A stretch of DNA of 20,658 bases from Epulopiscium sp. Nele67-Bin004 (lineage in GTDB: Bacteria; Bacillota_A; Clostridia; Lachnospirales; Cellulosilyticaceae): positions 1-20,658 of the forward strand of contig LNZQ01000220.1 in assembly GCA_002007315.1 (NCBI GenBank). The letters are read 5' to 3'. The notes under the pieces were generated by a model that had not been told where the DNA came from, did not search any database, and saw only the letters and a list, made by a program, of their open reading frames with translations. This document shows, piece by piece, positions 6,316-18,830 of the stretch (position 1 is its first letter; the number at the start of each line of letters is the position of its first letter). A program made the position numbers and the translations under genes.

Positions 6316-7152
6316 GTGGATAGTTCAAAACTAAAACTACATGGCTTTAACAATTTAACAAAAACACTAAGTTTCAATATGTATGACATTTGTTATACAA
6401 AAACCGAGGCGGACAGAACGGCGTACATCGAATATATCGATGAGCAATATAACGCTGATAGACTTACGCATATACTTACAACCGTTACACAAATTATTGG
6501 TGCAAACGTATTAAACATCGCAAAACAAGATTATGACCCACAAGGTGCAAGCGTTACAATACTTGTTTCAGAAGGTCCAGTTAATGAACAAAAACAAAGT
6601 CTTGAGGTTCACTCTGCATCACCAGGACCACTGCCAGACACAGTTGTTGCTCACCTTGACAAAAGCCACATCACTGTACACACATACCCAGAGTATCACC
6701 CATACGAAGGTATAAGCACATTTAGAGCTGACATTGATGTTTCAACTTGTGGAGAAATTTCACCACTGAAAGCTCTAAACTACTTAATACACTGTTTTGA
6801 CGCAGACATCATGACTCTTGATTACAGAGTTCGTGGATTTACTCGTGACATTACAGGACGCAAAATTTTTATGGATCATGAAGTAAATTCAATCCAAAAT
6901 TATATTCCAGATTCTGTTAGAAATCTATACAACATGATAGATGTAAACGTATATCAAGAAAATATTTTCCACACAAAATGTAAGCTTAAAGCATTTGACT
7001 TAGACAACTATTTGTTTGGATACACAAAAGATATGCTTCACCCTGGAACACGCAACGAAATAGCAAAAAAAGTTAAAAAAGAAATGGACGAAATCTTCTA
7101 CGGCACAAATGTTGCTAGTGCTATGTTTTCGATAGATAATGAAACATTCTAA
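6316..7152 (+). CDS. speD: S-adenosylmethionine decarboxylase proenzyme
   Basis: Makes decarboxylated S-adenosylmethionine, the aminopropyl donor for spermidine synthesis. The 278-residue protein matches the Escherichia coli-type (long) SpeD across its length: [12 protein letters not shown] at the start, [13 protein letters not shown], then [25 protein letters not shown] and [13 protein letters not shown]. The proenzyme should cut itself between Lys116 and Ser117, with Ser117 becoming the pyruvoyl cofactor. Finding the long class in a Gram-positive-like genome is worth noting, since Bacillus uses a shorter class. Translation starts at GTG 6316 behind GGGAG (6301-6305), 10 bases away. Its last 14 bases overlap the next gene, implying translational coupling. 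Confidence 0.95.
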
Positions 7153-9460
7153 AGCACCACTCCTAGAAGGAGTATACAACTATGCACAAAAAAATATGAC
7201 ATGTTTTGATGTTCCAGGACACAAGATGGGTGGTGGCATAGATATACTTAAGGATATGTGGGGAGAGTTAGTTCTAAAAATGGACATCAACTCCTCCCCG
7301 TTTGTGGACAATTTGTCGCATCCTACAACTATTATAAAAGAGGCGGAGGAACTTCTTGCCGATGCCTATCAATGTGATAATGCATTTATGTTAGTAAATG
7401 GCTCAACATCTGGTATTCAATATATGGTTATGAGTGCGATTAAAAGTGGTGACAAAATTTTGTTGCCACGAAATGTTCATAAATCGGCAATTAATGCCCT
7501 AATTTTATCGGGAGCAAAGCCTGTTTTTGTCAATACCGAGCTTGACACAAATTTAGGGATTGCAAATGCTATAACACCTAAATCAGTAAAACATGCTATC
7601 GACTTAAACAACGATATTAAAGCAATTTTAGTAATTCACTCAACTTATTTTGGGGTAACCCCTGACATAAAAGAAATTGTGAATATATGTCACGAACGAG
7701 GCATAAAAGTTCTTGTTGACCAAGCCCATGGTGCACATTTTGGGTTCAATAAGCACACCCCTATAAGTGGAACTGCTGTTGGTGCTGACCTAATTACGAC
7801 AAGTATGCATAAAACAGGTGGTGCGTTAACGCAATCGTCTGTCTTGTTCCACAATGAAGGTCTAATAAGCAAAGACGAAGTTCGTGCCACTATAAACTTG
7901 TTGCAAACAACGTCAGCGTCATATTTACTTATGTGCTCAATTGACGCAGCACGAAAACAACTTATGACCGAGGGTGACGCACGTCTTGAAAAATTGTACG
8001 AGCTTTCAGCGTATGCTAGACAAAAAATCAACGCTATAAACGGCTTTAATTGTATATCAAAAGAAACATATATAGATGGCGAAGGCGTGTATGACTATGA
8101 TGACTTAAAGCTTGTTATATGTGTTAAAGACGTTGGTCTTTCAGGCTTTAATATATATGATATGCTTGGCAAAGAGTATAACATTCAAATTGAACTTGCC
8201 GAACCATACGTTATACTTGCGATTATAAGCTTTGGCGACACTAAGGCAACAGTTGATACACTTATAAACGCACTTGCTGATATAAGCAGACGCTTTTATG
8301 AGTCAAACAAAAACGCACCACCTCTTTGTATAGAGCCAATAAAACCTAAAACAGTAATGACGCCTAGGGAGGCGTATTGCCATGCAAAGAAAACTGTTGA
8401 TATACAAGATGCTTTAGGCTATATTTGTGGTGAATCAGTTATGATTTATCCACCAGGGATACCTATAATTATTCCTGGCGAACAAATTACTAAGCAAATA
8501 ATAGACCACTATTTATATTTGCAATCAGAAAAAATTCTTATACTAAAAGATACACAAGATGAAAATAAAATTTCAATTATTGATAAAGATGCGGAGGATT
8601 CACCAATGGATTTATGGTACACAGAAAATCACCAAGACGATACAAAATTTTCAATTCAAGTAAATGAGCATATTCACACTGAAAAAAGTGAATTTCAAGA
8701 AATAGACTTCTTCAGAAGCAACACATTTGGAACATTTTTTACGCTTGATGGACTAATGATGGTTACGGAAAAAGATGAGTTTATTTACCACGACATGATT
8801 ACGCACGTTTCTATGGCTGTTAACCCAAATATAGAACGAGTGCTTATCATTGGCGGTGGTGACGGTGGAACGGCACGTGAAGTTCTTAGATACGAGCACG
8901 TTAAACATGTGGATATGGTTGAAATTGATGAGCGAGTTGTTCGTCTTTGCCAAAAATATCTGCCAATTACAGCGTCAAAACTTGATAACGACCCACGTCT
9001 AACACTACACTTCGTTGACGGATTACAGTTTGTTCAAGATGCCCAAGACGGTAGCTATGACCTAATATTAGTTGACTCAACAGACCCTATTGGTCCAGGG
9101 GAAGGGTTGTTCACTTACGCATTTTATAACAACTGCAAACGAGTGTTAAGCGACGACGGTATATTAATCAACCAACATGAAAGCCCATACTACGACACGT
9201 ATGCACACGAGATGAAACGTTCTCACTCAAAAATAAAAGAAACTTTCCCAGTAGCAAAAGTTTATCAATTCCACATGCCAACTTACCCATCTGGACATTG
9301 GTTGTTTGGGTTCGCCTCAAAGAAATACGACCCTATCAAAGACTTAAAAGCAGATTGGTGGAACTCGCTAGGAATCAAAACAAAATACTATAACACAGAT
9401 TTACATGTTGGGTGCTTTATGTTGCCAACTTATGTAAGGGAAGGACTTGAAAATGCTTAA
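7139..9460 (+). CDS. Arginine decarboxylase-spermidine synthase fusion
   Basis: A single 773-codon frame joins two complete enzymes. Residues 1-~485 are a fold-I PLP-dependent Orn/Lys/Arg decarboxylase of the Bacillus SpeA type: PGHKMGG near the start, VDQAHGAH (Asp194, His197), SMHKT with the PLP lysine at 225, and [12 protein letters not shown] (437-448). Residues 490-773 are spermidine synthase: MDLWYTENH start, IGGGDGG nucleotide-binding loop (571-577), VEIDE, and [15 protein letters not shown] with catalytic Asp646. Arginine is the likely substrate because agmatinase follows. The protein would catalyse the first and last steps of the route while SpeB does the middle one. There is no stop or frameshift at the junction, but the ancestral SpeE ribosome binding site and ATG remain. 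It overlaps speD by 14 bases and speB by 8. Confidence 0.93.
8593..8608 (+). promoter_or_regulatory. Internal ribosome binding site and start codon for SpeE
   Basis: GGAGG (8593-8597), eight bases and ATG (8606-8608, codon 490 of the fusion) make an ideal initiation site exactly where free-standing SpeE proteins begin. It could yield a separate 284-residue spermidine synthase besides the fusion. The bases also encode DAEDSPM, so no stop intervenes. Confidence 0.65.
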
Positions 9461-10413: not shown

Positions 10414-10890
10414 CTATATAGCCCACTCGCTTGAGCTAAAACTTGCAGTACCAACTGAAGTTGTGTATTGGCTAATAGCTTGTGCCATCAAGTTATTAGT
10501 TACAGACACTTCTTCTGCAGCTTCTTCTTCTGCTTCTTGTGTTTCTTCAATTGATTCTAAAATCATTTCTAACGTTGTTTCTTCTGTTGACTCTGCACTT
10601 TCCATCAAAGACTCAAGGCTTGTTGAGCTATTTGAAGATAATACACCTTGTGCTGTTGAAAGAGTGCTATCATCTAGTACATAACTACTAGAGTCATCAG
10701 TATCTGTTTCAGTTTCAGTAGTTGATGGAGGTGGTGGTGGAGGTGGTGGTGGTTGGTTCCCTTTAGGTCCTTTGACCCCCTCTGACTCTTCTGTTTCATC
10801 AACTTCTTGAGTATTAGTTAAATAATCAATACTTTGTGTTGATTGCGTATACGATGTATACAACGAACTTGTACTTCCACTAATTGTCAT
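10414..10890 (-). CDS. Ser/Glu-rich low-complexity protein with nine-proline run
   Basis: A 158-residue acidic protein of unrecognised family. It starts MTISGSTSSLY, has Ser/Thr/Tyr-rich residues 1-30, acidic 31-45, a run of nine prolines at ~47-55 following GPKGNQ, then Thr/Asp/Ser-rich sequence, a VLSSNSSTSLESL stretch and an EEEAAEE cluster. There is no signal peptide or membrane segment, so it is probably cytoplasmic or exported by a non-Sec route. The ATG at 10890 follows AAGGGG. The neighbouring upstream protein is a paralogue with the same order of parts, and the two are probably cotranscribed (47 bases apart). Nine prolines in a row should stall ribosomes without elongation factor P. 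Confidence 0.7.
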   Translation of the reverse strand: MTISGSTSSLYTSYTQSTQSIDYLTNTQEVDETEESEGVKGPKGNQPPPPPPPPPSTTETETDTDDSSSYVLDDSTLSTAQGVLSSNSSTSLESLMESAESTEETTLEMILESIEETQEAEEEAAEEVSVTNNLMAQAISQYTTSVGTASFSSSEWAI

Positions 10891-10937: not shown

Positions 10938-11315
10938 TTATGCTGGTATACCTAATAATTCTAATACTTCTTCAGATAGTATTTCAGGTTCGTATATAAT
11001 TTCTGCACCAGTTAAAGTTGTTGTTTCTTCGGCAGCTTCTTCTTCAGCAGCTAACAAAGAATCTAGTGTTACCCAGCTTTGTGATGACAAGAAACCTTGT
11101 GAGTCAGATAAGTTGCTTCCTGAATCTTCACCAGATGATGGTGGAGGTGGTGGTGGAGGCGGTGGTGTACCTTGTGCTTCCTCTGTACCTTCAGTGCTTC
11201 CTAACAAACTAGCACTGTCACTTAAGCTTGAAAAGCTTGTTGAGCTTGTTGATGTAGTTAAACTACTAGCGTAGCTTTGAGCATACCAGTAGCTTGAACT
11301 TGAACTGATAGTCAT
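10938..11315 (-). CDS. Paralogous Ser/Glu-rich protein with nine-proline run
   Basis: A 125-residue relative of the next gene downstream: MTISSSSSYWYAQSY start, Ser/Thr-rich 1-40, a short acidic stretch, nine prolines (~50-58), then SSGEDSGS, a SDSQGFLSSQS segment, LDSLLAAEEEAAEE, and a distinct C-terminal tail ending EEVLELLGIPA. The shared order (MTIS start, polyPro, QG-LSS, SL, EEEAAEE) shows descent from one gene. AAAGGA lies ahead of the ATG at 11315. A promoter with 11-base-spaced repeats lies upstream and suggests control by a response regulator. The function is unknown; the large uncharged and acidic content suggests an intrinsically disordered protein. Confidence 0.7.
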   Translation of the reverse strand: MTISSSSSYWYAQSYASSLTTSTSSTSFSSLSDSASLLGSTEGTEEAQGTPPPPPPPPPSSGEDSGSNLSDSQGFLSSQSWVTLDSLLAAEEEAAEETTTLTGAEIIYEPEILSEEVLELLGIPA

Positions 11316-11504: not shown

Positions 11505-13358
11505 ATGTCTATTCATAAATATATAGATTACATTAGAAATCAACAAGGCGTATCCCGTGATCAACTAGGGGCAGGGGTATTCTATTATAATGAACTTGCG
11601 AAAGTTGAGGCACTTAAAATGTTTCCCAAAAAAATTGTTATGGACACAATACTTCAACGACTTGATGCTACGAGAGATATATTTGAGTATTTTAGCACGT
11701 CAGAAGAATATAATATACTTAGCCTAAGAAAACAAATAGCTTTGTATATACATAAACAACAATATAATACAGCCATCTTGTCTATACAAAAATATAAACA
11801 ACTAATTGGTGATAACAATTTATATAATCAATTTTATGATTATTTTATTGCTTGCTTAATTGAAAATAATGTCGAACATGCTATTATACCTATCAATGTG
11901 TCTTTAGAAAAGTTTTATTTTAATATTATTAAATCAACTGTGCCAGATTTTAATGTATTGCCATTTGAACAATTATTGCTGAGTTATTTTGAAATTTATT
12001 TGATAATTAAATACACTAAATTTTTGGATACAGAACCGGCATACACTCTTTATATGGAACTTTTAAATTACGTTAATAATAAATCTCCAAAAACTAAAGC
12101 TTTATTTGCCCCAAAAATTGTTTGCAATTTAGCTGATATATTGCTGGAAAAAAATAAGTATAAAGAACTTTTGGATATCTGTAACGATGTCATTAATTGT
12201 TTAAGAACAACTAATAAATTTAATTATTTAACTAGTTTACTCAAAATAAAATTACACCTTTTAGAAATATATAATCTTAAAAATGATGAATATTATCAAC
12301 TTAAAGCTTGGCGTAATGTTTTAACTGAATTTTATGTTGGATATAATGTTGATATCAACAATGACAAATATATATTTCTTAAAATGTTTGGCTTAACAGG
12401 GGTCCATTTGATTAATAGTGTTATTAAACACAGACGTATAATGTTTGGATACACGCAAGAACACCTTGCAGACGGAATTTGTGAATTTAAAACTTTGTCA
12501 AGATTAGAAAATGGCAAAACTAAACGCCCTAATCCTAAAATACTTTCTAAGTTATTGAAAAAACTTAATTTTACGGGAGATTTGTATAGCGATACTATCC
12601 CATTTGTAGATAACGAAACGTTTATACTATCTGATAAAGTTACACAAACATTACGTATGAATAGCATAATAGAATGTCAAGAATATTTAGAGCAATTTCA
12701 AGAAAAATTAGATATGACTAATAAGCTTAATTTACAATGTATACTTTATAGAGAGCTATGTGTAAATAACAGAATAAGCCCAGAAAATAGTGCAGAATAT
12801 GTGCAAGAACTTAAAAATATATTGGGTATTACTATACCTACCACAAATGTATACGATAAAAAATATAAATATTTCTCTTGGGAAGAACTTCGTTTGATAG
12901 GAGTTATCATTTATAACTTAAATAAACTGGGTGATATAACGGAATTAAATAAATGGATTGAAATGGTAGAGTTATATTTTCAAGATAAAGAGTTTTACCT
13001 GAACCACTTGGATTCTTATTGTTTTGTGTTTTCTCAGATTTCTAGCCTACTAGGAAATCAGCATAATTTTTTAGAGTCAAATGCTATTAACAATACGCTT
13101 ATTGAGGAACAATTAGATAATGTTATTCTTGAGCATATAAATCGTGACATATACGGCAAATTTTGGAATATTATTGAAGAAAAAAAACAACAAGGGGTTG
13201 AACTAACCCCTTCAGAAATTGAATATTGCTTAAAACTTTTAAAAACTTCGTATATGTTTAGCGATATACTTAGAAATAATTATGGAAAACAACTTGTAAT
13301 AGAACAGCTGGAAAAATTAAATCCTAATCAGCATTTTATTCATTTTTTATTTTACTAG
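11505..13358 (+). CDS. Double-HTH, TPR-like regulator (RNPP-like)
   Basis: A 617-residue cytoplasmic regulator built as two similar halves. Residues ~3-54 form a divergent HTH (YIDYIRNQQGVSRDQLGAGV, then LAKVEA in place of the usual SRLE). Residues ~60-300 are helical repeats of the TPR kind. A canonical XRE-type HTH occupies ~304-356 (KHRRIMFGYTQEHLADGI, LSRLENGKTKRP), followed by a second helical-repeat region to the end. HTH plus TPR repeats is the layout of Rgg/PlcR/AimR-type peptide receptors, though those have one HTH. GAAGGAG lies 8 bases before the ATG. It diverges from the poly-proline genes and its stop is 6 bases from the end of an opposing prepeptide gene. Peptide binding is inferred, not shown. 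Confidence 0.75.
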   Translation: MSIHKYIDYIRNQQGVSRDQLGAGVFYYNELAKVEALKMFPKKIVMDTILQRLDATRDIFEYFSTSEEYNILSLRKQIALYIHKQQYNTAILSIQKYKQLIGDNNLYNQFYDYFIACLIENNVEHAIIPINVSLEKFYFNIIKSTVPDFNVLPFEQLLLSYFEIYLIIKYTKFLDTEPAYTLYMELLNYVNNKSPKTKALFAPKIVCNLADILLEKNKYKELLDICNDVINCLRTTNKFNYLTSLLKIKLHLLEIYNLKNDEYYQLKAWRNVLTEFYVGYNVDINNDKYIFLKMFGLTGVHLINSVIKHRRIMFGYTQEHLADGICEFKTLSRLENGKTKRPNPKILSKLLKKLNFTGDLYSDTIPFVDNETFILSDKVTQTLRMNSIIECQEYLEQFQEKLDMTNKLNLQCILYRELCVNNRISPENSAEYVQELKNILGITIPTTNVYDKKYKYFSWEELRLIGVIIYNLNKLGDITELNKWIEMVELYFQDKEFYLNHLDSYCFVFSQISSLLGNQHNFLESNAINNTLIEEQLDNVILEHINRDIYGKFWNIIEEKKQQGVELTPSEIEYCLKLLKTSYMFSDILRNNYGKQLVIEQLEKLNPNQHFIHFLFY

Positions 13359-13360
13359 AT

Positions 13361-13404
13361 GCTTTTATATTTCCCTTATCCAATCATGGATAGGAAGTAT
13401 AGCA
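13361..13404. other. Imperfect hairpin at the convergent gene ends
   Basis: GCTTTTATATTTCCCTTATCC folds on GGATAGGAAGTATAGC with a loop near 13382-13387 and small bulges. It begins 3 bases after the regulator stop and covers the last codons of the opposing prepeptide gene. It could end transcription from the regulator, though there is no good T run. Confidence 0.35.
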
Positions 13405-13511
13405 TCAGTTTGTGAGGAAATATAACAACTTGAATAGCTTGCTACTATAGAAATAATTGCCATGTTAATAGATAAGATTGAAATAAGTACTTTTAGTTTG
13501 TTTGTTTTCAT
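13365..13511 (-). CDS. Small secreted prepeptide, candidate pheromone
   Basis: A 48-codon gene with every sign of being real. AAAGGAG (13524-13518) lies 6 bases before the ATG, with an extended -10 promoter (TGATATAAT, 13560-13552) further up. The product starts MKTNKLKVLI, followed by a hydrophobic stretch to about residue 24 (SILSINMAIISIVA), a polar part with one Cys (SYSSCYISS), and a C-terminus LPIHDWIREI. A basic N-terminus, hydrophobic core and short polar tail is the build of PapR/Phr/NprX-type prepeptides, whose C-terminal residues are cut out as signals. It ends 6 bases from the HTH/TPR regulator on the opposite strand and diverges from a secreted protein gene. An alternative is a small membrane protein unrelated to signalling. 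Confidence 0.6.
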   Translation of the reverse strand: MKTNKLKVLISILSINMAIISIVASYSSCYISSQTDAILPIHDWIREI

Positions 13512-13551
13512 GATTTTCTCCTTTAATGTGTAATAATGTGTAGTTATGCAT

Positions 13552-13593
13552 ATTATATCATATTTTTTTCAAAACAACATACCATCTACGGTA
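13552..13593 (-). promoter_or_regulatory. Promoter and upstream dyad of the prepeptide gene
   Basis: TGA-TATAAT (13560-13552) is an extended -10 with no clear -35 hexamer. A dyad TACC-N6-GGTA (13580-13593) sits 22 bases upstream of the -10, where an activator would bind. Confidence 0.5.
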
Positions 13594-13669
13594 CAAAATA
13601 TTCGTTTATTTTATCCTCAGTTTGTGTGTTGTTAGTTTGATAAATGATATATACTTTTAAGTAGATAAG

Positions 13670-13690
13670 CCAAACAACATTTGGTGTTTG
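13670..13690. repeat. Two overlapping inverted repeats before the secreted protein gene
   Basis: CCAAA-N5-TTTGG (13670-13684) and CAAACA-N8-TGTTTG (13671-13690) share bases and exclude each other if folded in RNA. Either an operator or a leader switch is possible. They end 23 bases before the ribosome binding site of the secreted protein gene. Confidence 0.4.
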
Positions 13691-13731
13691 TCTAATATAT
13701 TATTGTACAAATTAGAGAGGAGTTAACTGAA

Positions 13732-14277
13732 ATGTTAAAACTTAATTCAATGAAAACAAGAACAAAATTAATGTATTCTATATTAGGGCTATCTTTACTT
13801 GCAACTAGTATACCTAATACAACGTTTGCTACAGATTTCACCGAAACAACAAGTATAGCTACAGATATGATTAGTTTACCTTCTATCGTTTCTGAAAATA
13901 GCGTAAATGGAACGTATACAATCATTGAGGATTTTGAGCAACATGAAGACTCAAATGGAGTTGCACCAATAGTAGTCGATGAACTAGTATACCTTAAGCT
14001 TCCAGCTGGAGAATACTATGATATAGATTTTAAGGTGGATAAATTTTTTGGAACTGACCATAATTCCTTTACTACTAGAATTATGGATGTTACTGGAACA
14101 TACAAATATATGGTTATAGGGAGCGATGGTTACAAGTATACAAGTCCTGAACGTAGCACAGACGATACGTTCACAACAACTAATGCAAGTTCTGGAGTCG
14201 AATATAGAGTTATGATATTAAATACTAATGCTATTCCACTTACTTGCACAGCACATACTTTTAGCTTTATTAAATAA
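13732..14277 (+). CDS. Secreted protein of unknown function
   Basis: A 181-residue protein with a Sec signal peptide: basic MKTRTK, hydrophobic LMYSILGLSLLATSIP, and a likely signal-peptidase I site after TFA at residue 33. The mature part (~148 residues) is rich in Thr, Ser, Asp and Tyr, has predicted beta strands (VYLKLPAGEYYDIDFKV, EYRVMILNT) and contains only one cysteine near the end, so it is probably an extracellular beta-sandwich-like domain. I do not recognise the family. AGAGAGGAG (13714-13722) lies 9 bases before the ATG; a second ATG at codon 7 would also keep the signal peptide. It diverges from the prepeptide gene across a 220-base region with dyads and may be a target of the regulator. 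Confidence 0.75.
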   Translation: MLKLNSMKTRTKLMYSILGLSLLATSIPNTTFATDFTETTSIATDMISLPSIVSENSVNGTYTIIEDFEQHEDSNGVAPIVVDELVYLKLPAGEYYDIDFKVDKFFGTDHNSFTTRIMDVTGTYKYMVIGSDGYKYTSPERSTDDTFTTTNASSGVEYRVMILNTNAIPLTCTAHTFSFIK

Positions 14278-14353: not shown

Positions 14354-14388
14354 AAAAGAGCCTAGAGAAAATCCCTCTAAGCTCTTTT
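14354..14388. terminator. Bidirectional terminator, copy 1 of a repeated hairpin
   Basis: AAAAGAGC and TAGAG pair with CTCTA and GCTCTTTT (one C/A mismatch) around a 7-base loop, followed by TATTAT. The stop codon of the minus-strand ATPase gene lies within the stem. The first 19 bases recur exactly at 18958-18976. Confidence 0.8.
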
Positions 14389-15936
14389 ATTATACTCCAA
14401 CTCTATCACTTGACAACTATGGTCTTTGTCTTTTGTATAATCAATCCCAACTATTAATATATTTCTTTTGTATCTTTCAAACACCTCTGTTGCATATTCC
14501 CTCTCTAGTATTTGGTTTATAGCAGTCTGAGTTCCTTCGTTGCGTTTAAGTTCTATAATAACCGGTATATCTTTTGATGATATCGGGTGAAAAATAAAAT
14601 CTGCCCTCCCTTTTCCGCTATGTTCTTCTTTTTTGATTATATATTTATCTCTTGCTGACCAATACGCCAAACTTACAACGCTACTTAATCCATTTTCATG
14701 ATTATAGTCATACAAAGTTATCTCCCTGTTATGAATGTTGTAAAGTATTTTAGCCATCGTTTCTACGTCTTTTGACAACGTTGCTTTTAGCATAAGTCTT
14801 GACTCTGCAAATAATTCTGCTGTTTTTCCAAAACTTTTACTTCTTAACGCCTTTTCAAATTGTTGCATTAGCTCTTTGTTCGGAATACTAACCATATAGT
14901 CTGCATATGTTAAAAATCCTAGTGTAATCATAGCCGAATATATTTCTTCTTTACTTTGTGGCAACTGTTGCCCTGCCCTAAAATCTTCTATATCATACAC
15001 TTCAACTTCTTCATTATTTATCATTCTTAACACATCATCTCTAACCCCTGCTGGGTCTATCTCCAAATACTCCAGTACCTCATTCATCGCCCCAGTGTTC
15101 ACCCAATAACTTTTACATTTCTTTTTTGTAAGTGCAATACTAACACTTCTAGGGTTAAATATTTTTATTCCACTCTCCATTTTATAACCATTATACCAAC
15201 TTTCCAAACTTTCATAATCCATATCGTTTGCTTGACATAAACCCTTTACTTCTTCCTCAGTAAATCCAAAATATTCTTCAAATATACCATCATCTAGCAA
15301 TGTATATTCTTCAAACATGTTTAATGCTGAACCCGACGAATGTTTTTTTATTGGCAATATCCCCGTCATATAACACAAAGTGACATATGACCTACCTTTT
15401 AATAGATTTCGCAAAAACTCTAAAAAACTTTCTTGTTTATCAACATACAATCCTTTATTAAATATAAAATCCCACTCATCAAATATAAATATAAACTTAT
15501 CTCCTGTTGCTAAAAACTTGTCTGATAAATTTTTATAATTATCAAACTCTATATGAGGATAATTTTTTTCTAAATCACTTATCAAATATGATTTTATTCG
15601 TCCTATATATTCGCTATATGTTGCATCTTCGTCTACATCAGAAAAATCTATTTTTATAACGTTATATTTATTTAAATTGTTTATATAGCTTTTTGTATAG
15701 CTAATTTTTAGTTTATCAAAAATATCTTTGCTATCAATCGCTTTGCTATAATAACTTTCTATCAAAAATGTTATTTCTGACTTGCCAAAACGTCTAGGTC
15801 GTGTGATACAAATCCAACTGTTAGTTTTATTAAGCCTTGTATTTAATATATCTAATATCATCGACTTATCGATAAATATATAGTTCTCTAACAATCTATT
15901 AAAATTTTCAAATCCAGACAATGTATTCAAATACAT
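14377..15936 (-). CDS. AAA-ATPase-like / PD-(D/E)XK nuclease-like protein, copy A
   Basis: A 519-residue protein of the AAA-ATPase-like plus PDDEXK_9 family (the DUF1703 type), common and expanded in gut Clostridia and Bacteroides, of unproven function. The variant Walker A reads TRPRRFGKS (~45-53), the Walker B FIFIFDEWDF (~147-156). The C-terminal nuclease core has GRADFIFHP followed by IIELKRN, fitting D-x(n)-E-x-K. The ATG at 15936 is used because GGAGGTGA lies 5 bases before it; the longer GTG-started opening at 15951 overlaps that site. The stop falls in the terminator stem, giving an NKRA tail not shared by copy B. It lies 5 bases downstream of copy B, so both are probably translated together. 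Confidence 0.85.
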   Translation of the reverse strand: MYLNTLSGFENFNRLLENYIFIDKSMILDILNTRLNKTNSWICITRPRRFGKSEITFLIESYYSKAIDSKDIFDKLKISYTKSYINNLNKYNVIKIDFSDVDEDATYSEYIGRIKSYLISDLEKNYPHIEFDNYKNLSDKFLATGDKFIFIFDEWDFIFNKGLYVDKQESFLEFLRNLLKGRSYVTLCYMTGILPIKKHSSGSALNMFEEYTLLDDGIFEEYFGFTEEEVKGLCQANDMDYESLESWYNGYKMESGIKIFNPRSVSIALTKKKCKSYWVNTGAMNEVLEYLEIDPAGVRDDVLRMINNEEVEVYDIEDFRAGQQLPQSKEEIYSAMITLGFLTYADYMVSIPNKELMQQFEKALRSKSFGKTAELFAESRLMLKATLSKDVETMAKILYNIHNREITLYDYNHENGLSSVVSLAYWSARDKYIIKKEEHSGKGRADFIFHPISSKDIPVIIELKRNEGTQTAINQILEREYATEVFERYKRNILIVGIDYTKDKDHSCQVIELEYNKRA

Positions 15937-15941
15937 AAATG

Positions 15942-17501
15942 TCACCTCCACTCCATATACTCCAATTCAATCACTTGACAACTATGGTCTTTGTCTTTTG
16001 TATAATCAATCCCAACTATTAGTATATTTCTTTTGTATCTTTCAAACACCTCTGTTGCGTATTCCCTCTCTAGTATTTGGTTTATAGCAGTCTGAGTTCC
16101 CTCGTTGCGTTTAAGTTCTATAATAATCGGTATATCTTTTGATGATATCGGATGAAAAATAAAATCTGCCCTACCTTTTCCACTATGTTCTTCTTTTTTG
16201 ATTATATATTTATCTCTTGCTGACAAATACGCCAAACTTACAACGCTACTTAATCCATTTTCATGATTATAGTCATACAAAGTTATCTCCCTATTATGAA
16301 TGTTGTGAAGTATTTTAGCCATCGTTTCCACGTCTTTTGACAACGTTGCTTTTAGCATAAGTCTTGACTCTGCAAATAATTCTGCTGTTTTTCCAAAACT
16401 TTTACTTCTTAACGCCTTTTCAAATTGTTGCATCAACTCTTTGTTTGGAATACTAACCATATAGTCTGCATATGTCAAAAATCCTAGTGTAATCATAGCT
16501 GAATATATTTCTTCTTTACTTTGTGGCAACTGTTGCCCTGCCCTAAAATCTTCTATATCATACACTTCAACTTCTTCATTATTTACCATTCTTAGCACAT
16601 CATCTCTAACCCCTGTTGGGTCTATCTCCAAATATTCCAGTACCTCATTCATCGCCCCAGTGTTCACCCAATAACTTTTACATTTCTTTTTTGTAAGTGC
16701 AATACTAACACTTCTAGGGTTAAATATTTTTATCCCACTCTCCATTTTATAACCATTATACCAACTTTCCAAACTTTCATAATCCATATCGTTTGCTTGA
16801 CATAAACCCCTTACTTCTTCCTCAGTAAATCCAAAATATTCTTCAAATATGCCATCATCTAGCAATGTATATTCTTCAAACATGTTTAATGCTGAACCCG
16901 ACGAATGTTTTTTTATTGGCAATATCCCTGTCATATAACACAAAGTGACATATGACCTACCTTTTAATAGATTTCTCAAAAACTCTAAAAAACTTTCTTG
17001 TTTATCAACGTACAAACTTTTATTAAATATAAAATCCCACTCATCAAATATAAATATAAACTTATCTCCTGTTGCTAAAAACTTGTCTGATAAATTTTTA
17101 TAATTATCAAACTCTATATGAGAATAATTTTTTTCTAAATCACTTATCAAATATGATTTTATTCGTCCTATATATTCGCTATATGTTGCATCTTCGTCTA
17201 TTTCTGAAAAATCTATTTTTATAACGTTATATTTATTTAAGTTGTTTATATAGCTTTTTGTATAGCTAATTTTTAGTTTATCAAAAATATCTTTGCTATC
17301 AATCGCTTTGCTATAATAACTTTCTATTAAAAATGTTATTTCCGACTTGCCAAAACGTCTAGGGCGTGTGATATAAATATATTTATGCTTTGTGTGCAAT
17401 CTATTATTTAATATATCTATTATCATAGATTTATCAATAAATATATCTCCCTTGAATAGCTCCAAAAAATTTTCAAATCCAGATAGTGTATTCAAATACA
17501 T
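15942..17501 (-). CDS. AAA-ATPase-like / PD-(D/E)XK nuclease-like protein, copy B
   Basis: The tandem twin of copy A, also 519 residues. By my reading the two proteins differ at only about 10 positions beyond residue ~48, apart from the last few residues, but at about 15 positions between residues 13 and 48 (for instance LELFKGD against NRLLENY). The TRPRRFGKS, FDEWDF and IIELKRN motifs are intact. The ATG at 17501 aligns with that of copy A, but no Shine-Dalgarno sequence precedes it: the sequence is AGTAGCAGTTGATATTT where copy A has GGAGGTGACATTT. The right end of a tnpB element lies just upstream and probably removed the native site. The 3' end (MEWR tail) carries the ribosome binding site for copy A. 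Confidence 0.8.
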   Translation of the reverse strand: MYLNTLSGFENFLELFKGDIFIDKSMIIDILNNRLHTKHKYIYITRPRRFGKSEITFLIESYYSKAIDSKDIFDKLKISYTKSYINNLNKYNVIKIDFSEIDEDATYSEYIGRIKSYLISDLEKNYSHIEFDNYKNLSDKFLATGDKFIFIFDEWDFIFNKSLYVDKQESFLEFLRNLLKGRSYVTLCYMTGILPIKKHSSGSALNMFEEYTLLDDGIFEEYFGFTEEEVRGLCQANDMDYESLESWYNGYKMESGIKIFNPRSVSIALTKKKCKSYWVNTGAMNEVLEYLEIDPTGVRDDVLRMVNNEEVEVYDIEDFRAGQQLPQSKEEIYSAMITLGFLTYADYMVSIPNKELMQQFEKALRSKSFGKTAELFAESRLMLKATLSKDVETMAKILHNIHNREITLYDYNHENGLSSVVSLAYLSARDKYIIKKEEHSGKGRADFIFHPISSKDIPIIIELKRNEGTQTAINQILEREYATEVFERYKRNILIVGIDYTKDKDHSCQVIELEYMEWR

Positions 17502-17516
17502 AAATATCAACTGCTA

Positions 17517-17548: not shown

Positions 17549-17700
17549 ATTTTTCCTTTTTCACCGAACCTTATTTTGCCACTTTCTCGCTACTTTAATT
17601 TGATATAGTTCTCCAAAGGCTTAAATTCCGAACTAGCCATCCGTACATATATAAGTGCTTGTTTCGTTAAGCTATCTTATATTTTTTAGCATTTTTCAAG
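17549..17700 (-). ncRNA. Candidate omega-RNA (TnpB guide RNA scaffold)
   Basis: In IS200/IS605 elements the guide RNA spans the tnpB 3' end and the right end. Here the 28-base block 17598-17625, just after the tnpB stop, closely matches 20539-20566 next to the second TnpB gene (TTAAGCCT-n-TGGAGA, then TATATCAAAT on the minus strand). That is conservation outside a reading frame. The extent is approximate, and the guide would be the bases just beyond the right end. Confidence 0.6.
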
Positions 17701-18830
17701 TTATAGCTTGCATTCAAATCTCTATCTAATATAGTGTTACAGTTATCGCACTTATATGTTCTGTCGCTTAATTTTAAATCTATTTTTTTGTTTCCACAAC
17801 AACTACATAACTTTGATGATGGATGCCATCTATCTATTATCCTTAACTCTATATTATGACGCTTACATTTATTTTCAGTTTTAGTTCTAAATTCTGAAAA
17901 TCTTTGATTTGCTACAGCTTTGCTTAAATGCTTATTTTTCATCATTCCTTTTACGTTTAAGTCTTCTAAAGCTATATAAGATGGCTTGGTTTTTACTATC
18001 TTATTTATCACTTTATTTATATAATCAGTTCTTATATTGTTTAAGGTTTGATGTGCTTTTTGTACTTTAATGACTTGTTTTTGTATATTTTGACGAGTAG
18101 CCCCTCCTTTTTTATTATTTGATTTTTTCAAACTATCATATTTTCTTGATAGTTTGCGTTGTTCTCGTTTTAACCTTTTTTCTGCTTTTTTTATGCGAGT
18201 AGTTTTATTTATATTTTTATAAACATCACCATTACTACATATTACAAAATCTTTTAAGCCTAGGTCTATTCCTACTCCATCGCTATTACTTTTTGATGGT
18301 TTATTTTCAGGCTCTTCCACTAAAATTGAAACATAATATCTATCAGCTTTTTTGCTTACTGTCCCACTTTTTATTATACTATTTACAGGGCAGTATCCAT
18401 ATTCTTTAAACCTTACCCAGCCAAGAGTAGGTATTTTTACTTTGTGCCTTTCTATCGCCCAGTCTGTTTCATTATTTTTAGGAAAGTATGCTTTAACATC
18501 TGATTTATTTTTCTTCTTGAACTTTGGAAAATCAGCTTCTTTAGCAAAAAACTTGTTAAAAGCTTTATGACCATTCATAATAGCTTGCTTAACGGCTTTG
18601 CTAGATACTTCTTTTATCCAACTGTATTTTTTATTGTTAGGTAAAAATTCGTTATTTAGCCATTTAGAAAAATCGTATCCTGTTATAAAACCTTTGTTTA
18701 TCTCATAAGTTTCTATGTTGTGAGATAAATAAAAATTATATATAAACCTACATACCCCTATTGTTTTATTTATTTTTTCTTTTTGTTCTAATGTGGGAAT
18801 GATCTCTATTTTATAAGCTTTTTTATACAC
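17667..18830 (-). CDS. tnpB: TnpB RNA-guided nuclease, IS200/IS605 family
   Basis: A full-length 387-residue TnpB, the relative of Cas12 that uses an omega-RNA to cut DNA and help retain the element. It has the N-terminal HTH/beta region (MYKKAYKIEIIPTLEQKEKI), the RuvC catalytic triad as Asp189 in GVGIDLGLKDF, Glu289 in IALEDLNVKGM and Asp371 in DRDLNASYN, and a zinc finger with Cys342, Cys345, Cys361 and Cys364. No catalytic residue or zinc ligand is missing, so it is probably active. The start is GTG at 18830 behind GGAGG (18841-18837) with 6 bases between. No tnpA is next to it. It lies just upstream of the tandem ATPase genes in the same orientation. Confidence 0.93.
   Translation of the reverse strand: MYKKAYKIEIIPTLEQKEKINKTIGVCRFIYNFYLSHNIETYEINKGFITGYDFSKWLNNEFLPNNKKYSWIKEVSSKAVKQAIMNGHKAFNKFFAKEADFPKFKKKNKSDVKAYFPKNNETDWAIERHKVKIPTLGWVRFKEYGYCPVNSIIKSGTVSKKADRYYVSILVEEPENKPSKSNSDGVGIDLGLKDFVICSNGDVYKNINKTTRIKKAEKRLKREQRKLSRKYDSLKKSNNKKGGATRQNIQKQVIKVQKAHQTLNNIRTDYINKVINKIVKTKPSYIALEDLNVKGMMKNKHLSKAVANQRFSEFRTKTENKCKRHNIELRIIDRWHPSSKLCSCCGNKKIDLKLSDRTYKCDNCNTILDRDLNASYNLKNAKKYKIA

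Follow-up and report, generated by a model that had tools for sequence, protein, structure and literature searches.

The question raised by this locus is whether a small gene lying tail-to-tail with a large regulator gene in Epulopiscium sp. Nele67-Bin004 encodes the precursor of a peptide signal that is read by its neighbor. Within the window (the whole stretch of 20,658 nt analysed here), the small gene (13365..13511, minus strand) comprises 48 codons, MKTNKLKVLISILSINMAIISIVASYSSCYISSQTDAILPIHDWIREI, begins with ATG and is preceded by the ribosome-binding site AAAGGAG (13518..13524, minus strand); its stop codon ends at 13365 and that of the regulator at 13358, leaving 6 bp between the convergent genes, just as the original prediction had described for a 48-codon gene beside a 617-residue regulator. 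When both strands of the 20.7 kb were passed through a filter for small secreted genes (SD, ATG, 35-80 aa, hydrophobic N-terminus and K/R), the frame at 13511-13365 was the only one to come through. Signal peptides were judged from the hydropathy (and charge) of N-termini, and on both counts the N-terminus of this prepeptide fits a secretion-type signal. The last 10 codons (13368..13397, minus strand) encode LPIHDWIREI, a tail of mixed character which, by analogy, is the likely source of the mature peptide. No homologue of the prepeptide was found in the protein database and no close orthologue of the ORF was found, so that its assignment rests on position and type; likewise, none of 8 prepeptides scanned had a Pfam or NCBIfam family above cut-off. 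The 48-codon gene, which has equivalents beside homologous regulators, is real. The extended -10 promoter that had been proposed for it, TGATATAAT, is indeed present as a possible site (13552..13560, minus strand) but carries little weight: counting both strands, the window contains TGNTATAAT 9 times, and a promoter consensus scan of 13300-13800 yielded 4 promoter-like sites vs. 4.2 in shuffles without listing this one, so the promoter alone is weak evidence.

The regulator gene (11505..13358, plus strand; 617 aa) had been predicted to encode an HTH with helical repeats, and this description stood as far as the HTH (HTH_3 by Pfam) and the PlcR-like character (by profile) are concerned, but TPRs were not seen by Pfam. 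The single HTH_3 lies mid-protein, at residues 307-357, and the window regulator had no TPR or RNPP_C match in Pfam; among 15 family members, RNPP_C was found in 3, and TPR_8, TPR_12, TPR_2 or TPR_6 in 3 each. The N-terminal HTH+TPR unit is visible solely by comparison of family profiles: in a 15-sequence alignment of long members, the two halves of the regulator are homologous (HHalign 99.9%, E 2.6e-31, 258 columns). Unit 1 (residues 1-297; 11505..12395, plus strand) comprises an HTH-like segment at about 1-56, undetected by Pfam, followed by helical repeats, and in the family profile it starts like the PDB chains 5w4n and 4yv6, which are titled merely 'transcriptional regulator' and which we take to be Rgg proteins. 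Unit 2 (residues 298-617; 12396..13358, plus strand), which carries the HTH_3, is homologous to PlcR: over this unit, no PDB entry matched the family profile better (E 4.3e-14), with profile positions 312-608 aligning to residues 10-290, nearly all of PlcR; the window regulator alone gave no phmmer match to PlcR at E 1. A low-confidence model of the regulator (pLDDT 54) aligns with PlcR and with other TPR proteins. As judged by these comparisons, the window regulator is a tandem of two PlcR-like units, a feature absent from the original prediction. Each half is of the usual receptor size, related single-unit proteins comprise ~300 aa, and the only database relative of the regulator was from Epulopiscium Nele67-Bin004 (46%). 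Adjacent pairs of single-unit genes occur at L195/L196 (the second gene having a convergent small ORF), L134, L097, L099 and L136; the tandem regulator may have arisen by fusion of single units, or the pairs by fission. We infer that unit 2 is the likelier reader of the peptide. A PlcR-type regulator is normally dimeric, and the fused receptor may comprise a built-in dimer within one chain, which would make it a natural single-chain form of such a regulator.

The presence of the small frame beside homologous regulators had been set beforehand as a test of the pairing, and the frame was found there, at the same place and in the same orientation. A 4-sequence regulator profile run against 392 genomes of the order matched 72 of them, with some long proteins matched along most of the profile and many ~300-aa proteins along one half; in a class sample of 291 genomes, 5 were matched at E 1e-30, 3 of which were already known from the order-level search. 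Our survey of gene order drew on 30 loci from the order profile search, the Epulopiscium and named-genus loci and 60 hand-chosen regions, mainly open frames of at least about 270 aa rather than all matches; regulators with identical last 400 nt were merged, and those shorter than 250 aa or with less than 300 nt to the right were excluded. With ORFs scored on hydrophobic N-terminus, basic charge, ribosome site and start, a convergent small ORF of secreted type lay no more than 60 bp from the stop of 24 of the 33 fused and 24 of the 63 single-unit regulators, as compared to 4/948 control genes (841 of them from other taxa) and 0/107 of those from the regulators' own set of loci. Among the 24 fused positives are L111 and L132, whose ORFs are 40-41 bp off and may be spurious; in the narrower range of -30 to +15 bp, the counts were 22/33 and 16/63. 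A stricter test accepting only ATG starts found a convergent ORF in 39 of 88 regulators (18/30 fused and 21/58 single-unit) and an ORF in another position in 1/88, with 3/856 controls being convergent. Since the thresholds were set post hoc, having been fixed after 16 loci were viewed, and the loci share ancestry, the Fisher p value of 7e-51 for this pairing is descriptive. By the survey score, a qualifying ORF was absent from 27% of the fused regulators and from 62% of the single-unit ones; the long form in an Anaerocolumna MAG (L114) had none, and the single unit in a Herbinix MAG (L115) had one. Prepeptides of the fused set comprise 43-73 aa with tails that are often acidic or polar, and in several relatives the small ORF overlaps the regulator end by 4-26 bp. 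This recurrence, together with the match of the family profile to PlcR, supports the proposal that regulator and prepeptide form a pair of RNPP type.

Among 7 genomes titled Epulopiscium or Epulonipiscium, regulator homologues were found in one, Nele67-Bin005 (G001), which has two copies; the other six had no homologue with the 4-sequence profile. Both paralogues have a convergent small ORF at their end: at L082 a 43-aa ORF lies 8 bp from the regulator with a good ribosome site, and at L081 a 44-aa ORF overlaps the regulator by 26 bp with no clear ribosome site, its score of 2.5 placing it outside the 24 fused positives. A divergent gene in the window (13732-14277), whose N-terminus looks signal-like by eye and for which neither Pfam nor NCBIfam gave a family above cut-off, had been put forward as a secreted target of the system, a proposal that found no support in the comparison with L081, where the gene at the equivalent place has no similarity to it. 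Oligopeptide-type binding proteins (SBP_bac_5) gave 4 matches in G001 and 7 in genome G006, where they are abundant yet no regulator homologue is present; their presence would permit peptide import but is generic, pointing to nothing specific.

With the two genes, their recurrent tail-to-tail order, the two units, the PlcR homology and, in one ortholog group, a receptor body and peptide tail that vary in step, we think it quite probable that the window pair serves quorum sensing in an RRNPP-like manner, as a variant from Lachnospirales whose double receptor is fused. We surmise that signaling would proceed as follows: 1) the 48-aa prepeptide would be exported via its N-terminal signal; 2) it would be trimmed outside the cell to a short C-terminal peptide; 3) this peptide would be re-imported by an oligopeptide permease; 4) it would be bound by the convergently encoded regulator, in the groove formed by the helical repeats; and 5) the peptide-bound regulator would alter transcription, with the prepeptide gene itself probably among the genes affected.

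The nearest comparison is PlcR-PapR of the Bacillus cereus group, with which the window pair shares a receptor whose homology extends along almost all of PlcR and an adjoining small propeptide gene (48 aa here). Chains of the PlcR subfamily have a single HTH and a single TPR domain, but the window regulator has two PlcR-like units, fused in 617 aa vs. one unit in the 293-aa PlcR PDB chain; and whereas papR lies downstream of plcR in the same direction, the window genes are convergent. Convergent order is, however, already known from streptococci, where, in the portions of PMC13361665 and PMC12445099 available, the peptide gene of Group III Rgg/SHP (now MutRS) is convergent with the regulator gene and overlaps its end. 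The peptide genes of the window and its relatives are likewise convergent, but the window has a 6-bp gap in place of the overlap (present in several relatives, as above), the receptor is fused, the prepeptides of the fused set are 43-73 aa, the bacterial order is different, and the often acidic or polar tails differ from the hydrophobic-rich SHP. In the available part of PMC10075063, the RRNPP signature comprises a propeptide of 10-100 aa, Sec/PptAB secretion, a receptor of 250-500 aa with TPRs, adjacent genes and a peptide that, once imported, binds the receptor, and RRNPP_detector allows a spacing of -60 to 400 bp with receptors of 250-500 aa by default. The window propeptide (48 aa) and the adjacency (6-bp gap) fall within this signature but the receptor, at 617 aa, exceeds its length range, and because of that receptor we call the pair an RRNPP-like fused variant rather than filing it under the signature. 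The clusters of that detector, as described there, resemble the window pair in having a small propeptide beside a receptor of the same superfamily, and the spacing here is within the allowed range; receptors of ~600 aa are skipped by default, whereas the clusters could include those single-unit members that are 250-500 aa long. In the open-access literature, to the extent of the texts available, we found no paper on such pairs in Lachnospiraceae or Epulopiscium; 'Lachnospir' is absent from the main text of PMC9765709 and PMC12700828 in the form available, and the accessible text of an Epulopiscium paper (PMC8245194) mentions quorum sensing once, about Myxococcus.

Evidence linking peptide and receptor comes from L178-L181, four loci of one genus with orthologous regulators (71-85% identical to that of L178) which form an ortholog group other than that of the window and the one group in which C-terminal variability was seen. 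Their prepeptides have a similar leader of ~65 residues and end in ISILRNQ, RNVLFNQ, RTAFFNQ and THRVNVNQ. Across all six pairwise comparisons, identity is 94-100% in the HTHs vs. 65-90% in the TPR regions of unit 1 and 56-76% in those of unit 2, the latter diverging more than any other portion of the regulator in 6/6 pairs by dN, though not always by dS. For L178/L181, dS was low in the upstream gene (0.17), the first HTH (0.13) and the leader (0.07) but reached at least 1.2 throughout the remaining receptor and in the peptide tail, which is the pattern left when the body of the receptor and the tail of the peptide are replaced jointly. This picture is less clear-cut in the remaining five pairs, where the upstream gene has a dS of 0.40-1.13, and there is little difference between L179 and L180 in the peptide tail (dN 0.26). 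The pattern of synonymous and non-synonymous changes had been named as a further test of whether the small frame is coding, and it lent weak support: leader dN/dS was 0.18, 0.20, 0.30 and 0.42 in four pairs but 0.72 and 1.10 in the other two, and since one antisense frame was equally low in the same pairs (0.11-0.64), the substitution pattern alone is no proof of the frame. The leader (prepeptide codons 1-64) had a dS of 0.05-0.20, far below the 0.68-1.6 of the regulator, which would fit either constraint on the nucleic acid itself (DNA or RNA) or a recent exchange.

This co-variation bears on a different reading, in which the regulator would control the small secreted peptide as an effector, of bacteriocin-like or surface-active kind, and would not have it as its ligand. 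Regulators of the RRNPP superfamily are able to control adjacent secreted products, and the collected ORFs, with a signal-like N-terminal segment and a variable tail, would suit such a role. However, in L178-L181 the TPR regions and the tail vary together while the HTHs stay fixed, with joint exchange in L178/L181, and an effector would need no matching receptor body; in addition, the 8 prepeptides scanned fell into no Pfam or NCBIfam family above cut-off. We thus regard an effector as improbable.

Upstream of the prepeptide, 31 of 52 members have a long inverted repeat (score at least 13), as compared to 35/257 control stretches upstream and 33/206 downstream of genes, some of which are the same repeats reached via neighboring genes. 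In the 420 bp that follow the regulator gene, 33 of 51 regulators with a small ORF had a repeat scoring at least 14, vs. 7 of 45 without a small ORF. The window and L081 had no long inverted repeat (window score 6, shuffled mean 6.8). The regulator side of the repeat is richer in T (6.2 vs. 4.5 of 10, p 1.5e-4, n=36), which fits a terminator; among fused regulators, the arms resemble each other more where the regulators are related (Mantel rho 0.33, p 0.0005, n=18), which fits an operator, a trend not clear for single-unit regulators (rho 0.16, p 0.07, n=18). The repeat may act as an operator, or it may terminate the transcript of the regulator. Arms upstream of the prepeptide share the core CCATGAC in L085, L086, L094 and L118, and GTGACAGAG in L087, L090 and L092; these repeats are long and near-perfect, and the regulators concerned are in part only ~30% identical. 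At L188, a regulator homologue that has no qualifying small ORF, an inverted repeat with 31-nt arms lies 14 bp past the stop.

Terminator-like repeats of this kind beyond the small gene, T-richer on the regulator side, and the tail-to-tail overlap or close abutment of the genes would also be in keeping with a unit resembling type I toxin-antitoxin systems, in which a small membrane peptide is silenced by antisense RNA from the convergent regulator transcript. Such a unit is nevertheless very unlikely, given regulators that are PlcR-like with a peptide-binding fold, small genes with hydrophilic, variable tails, tails that co-vary with the receptor, and no terminator-like site in the window at 13300-13800. 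That the signaling family is real but the 48-codon frame of the window is a chance or decayed one, as its want of a close orthologue and of the upstream repeat seen in 31/52 members and the commonness of homologues with no qualifying ORF might suggest, is scarcely credible for the sole frame in 20.7 kb to pass the filter, which is positioned exactly as in relatives and has a control rate of 4/948 genes.

Returning to the RRNPP-like pair, we further speculate, with rather more doubt than belief, that it belongs to a large pheromone family of Lachnospirales in which fused receptors would be single-chain pseudo-dimers; in which tail-to-tail order would put the peptide-reading domain beside the specificity tail, so that one recombination swaps both (L178/L181 being the clean example); in which the inverted repeat would be an operator, or a terminator beyond the antisense overlap; and which in Epulopiscium would serve as a signal between the cells of giant gut symbionts. 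If true, common gut bacteria and giant surgeonfish symbionts carry a diversified peptide signaling family, the fused members of which are skipped by the defaults of the published detector, as given in the available part of its description. Co-varying receptor body and peptide tail also make specificity directly testable.

Other genes of the window include two adjacent ORFs just upstream of, and divergent from, the regulator (10414-10890 and 10938-11315, both on the minus strand), which resemble each other in composition (acidic, rich in Ser/Thr and each with nine consecutive prolines) and which have no Pfam family above cut-off. On the other side are two adjacent near-identical genes (14377-15951 and 15942-17510, minus strand) of AAA-ATPase_like + PDDEXK_9 type, the first by scan and the second by eye, followed by a gene for an IS605-type OrfB/TnpB-like protein (17667-18830, minus strand). 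The gene at 7139-9460 (plus strand) encodes a 773-aa polyamine protein, presumably a decarboxylase-spermidine synthase fusion, that is closest to Epulopiscium MAGs (81% over part in L072, 74% in L001) and 69-70% identical to Gottfriedia/Bacillus proteins, as close as several Epulopiscium genomes, and we consider gene transfer possible from this pattern of identity.
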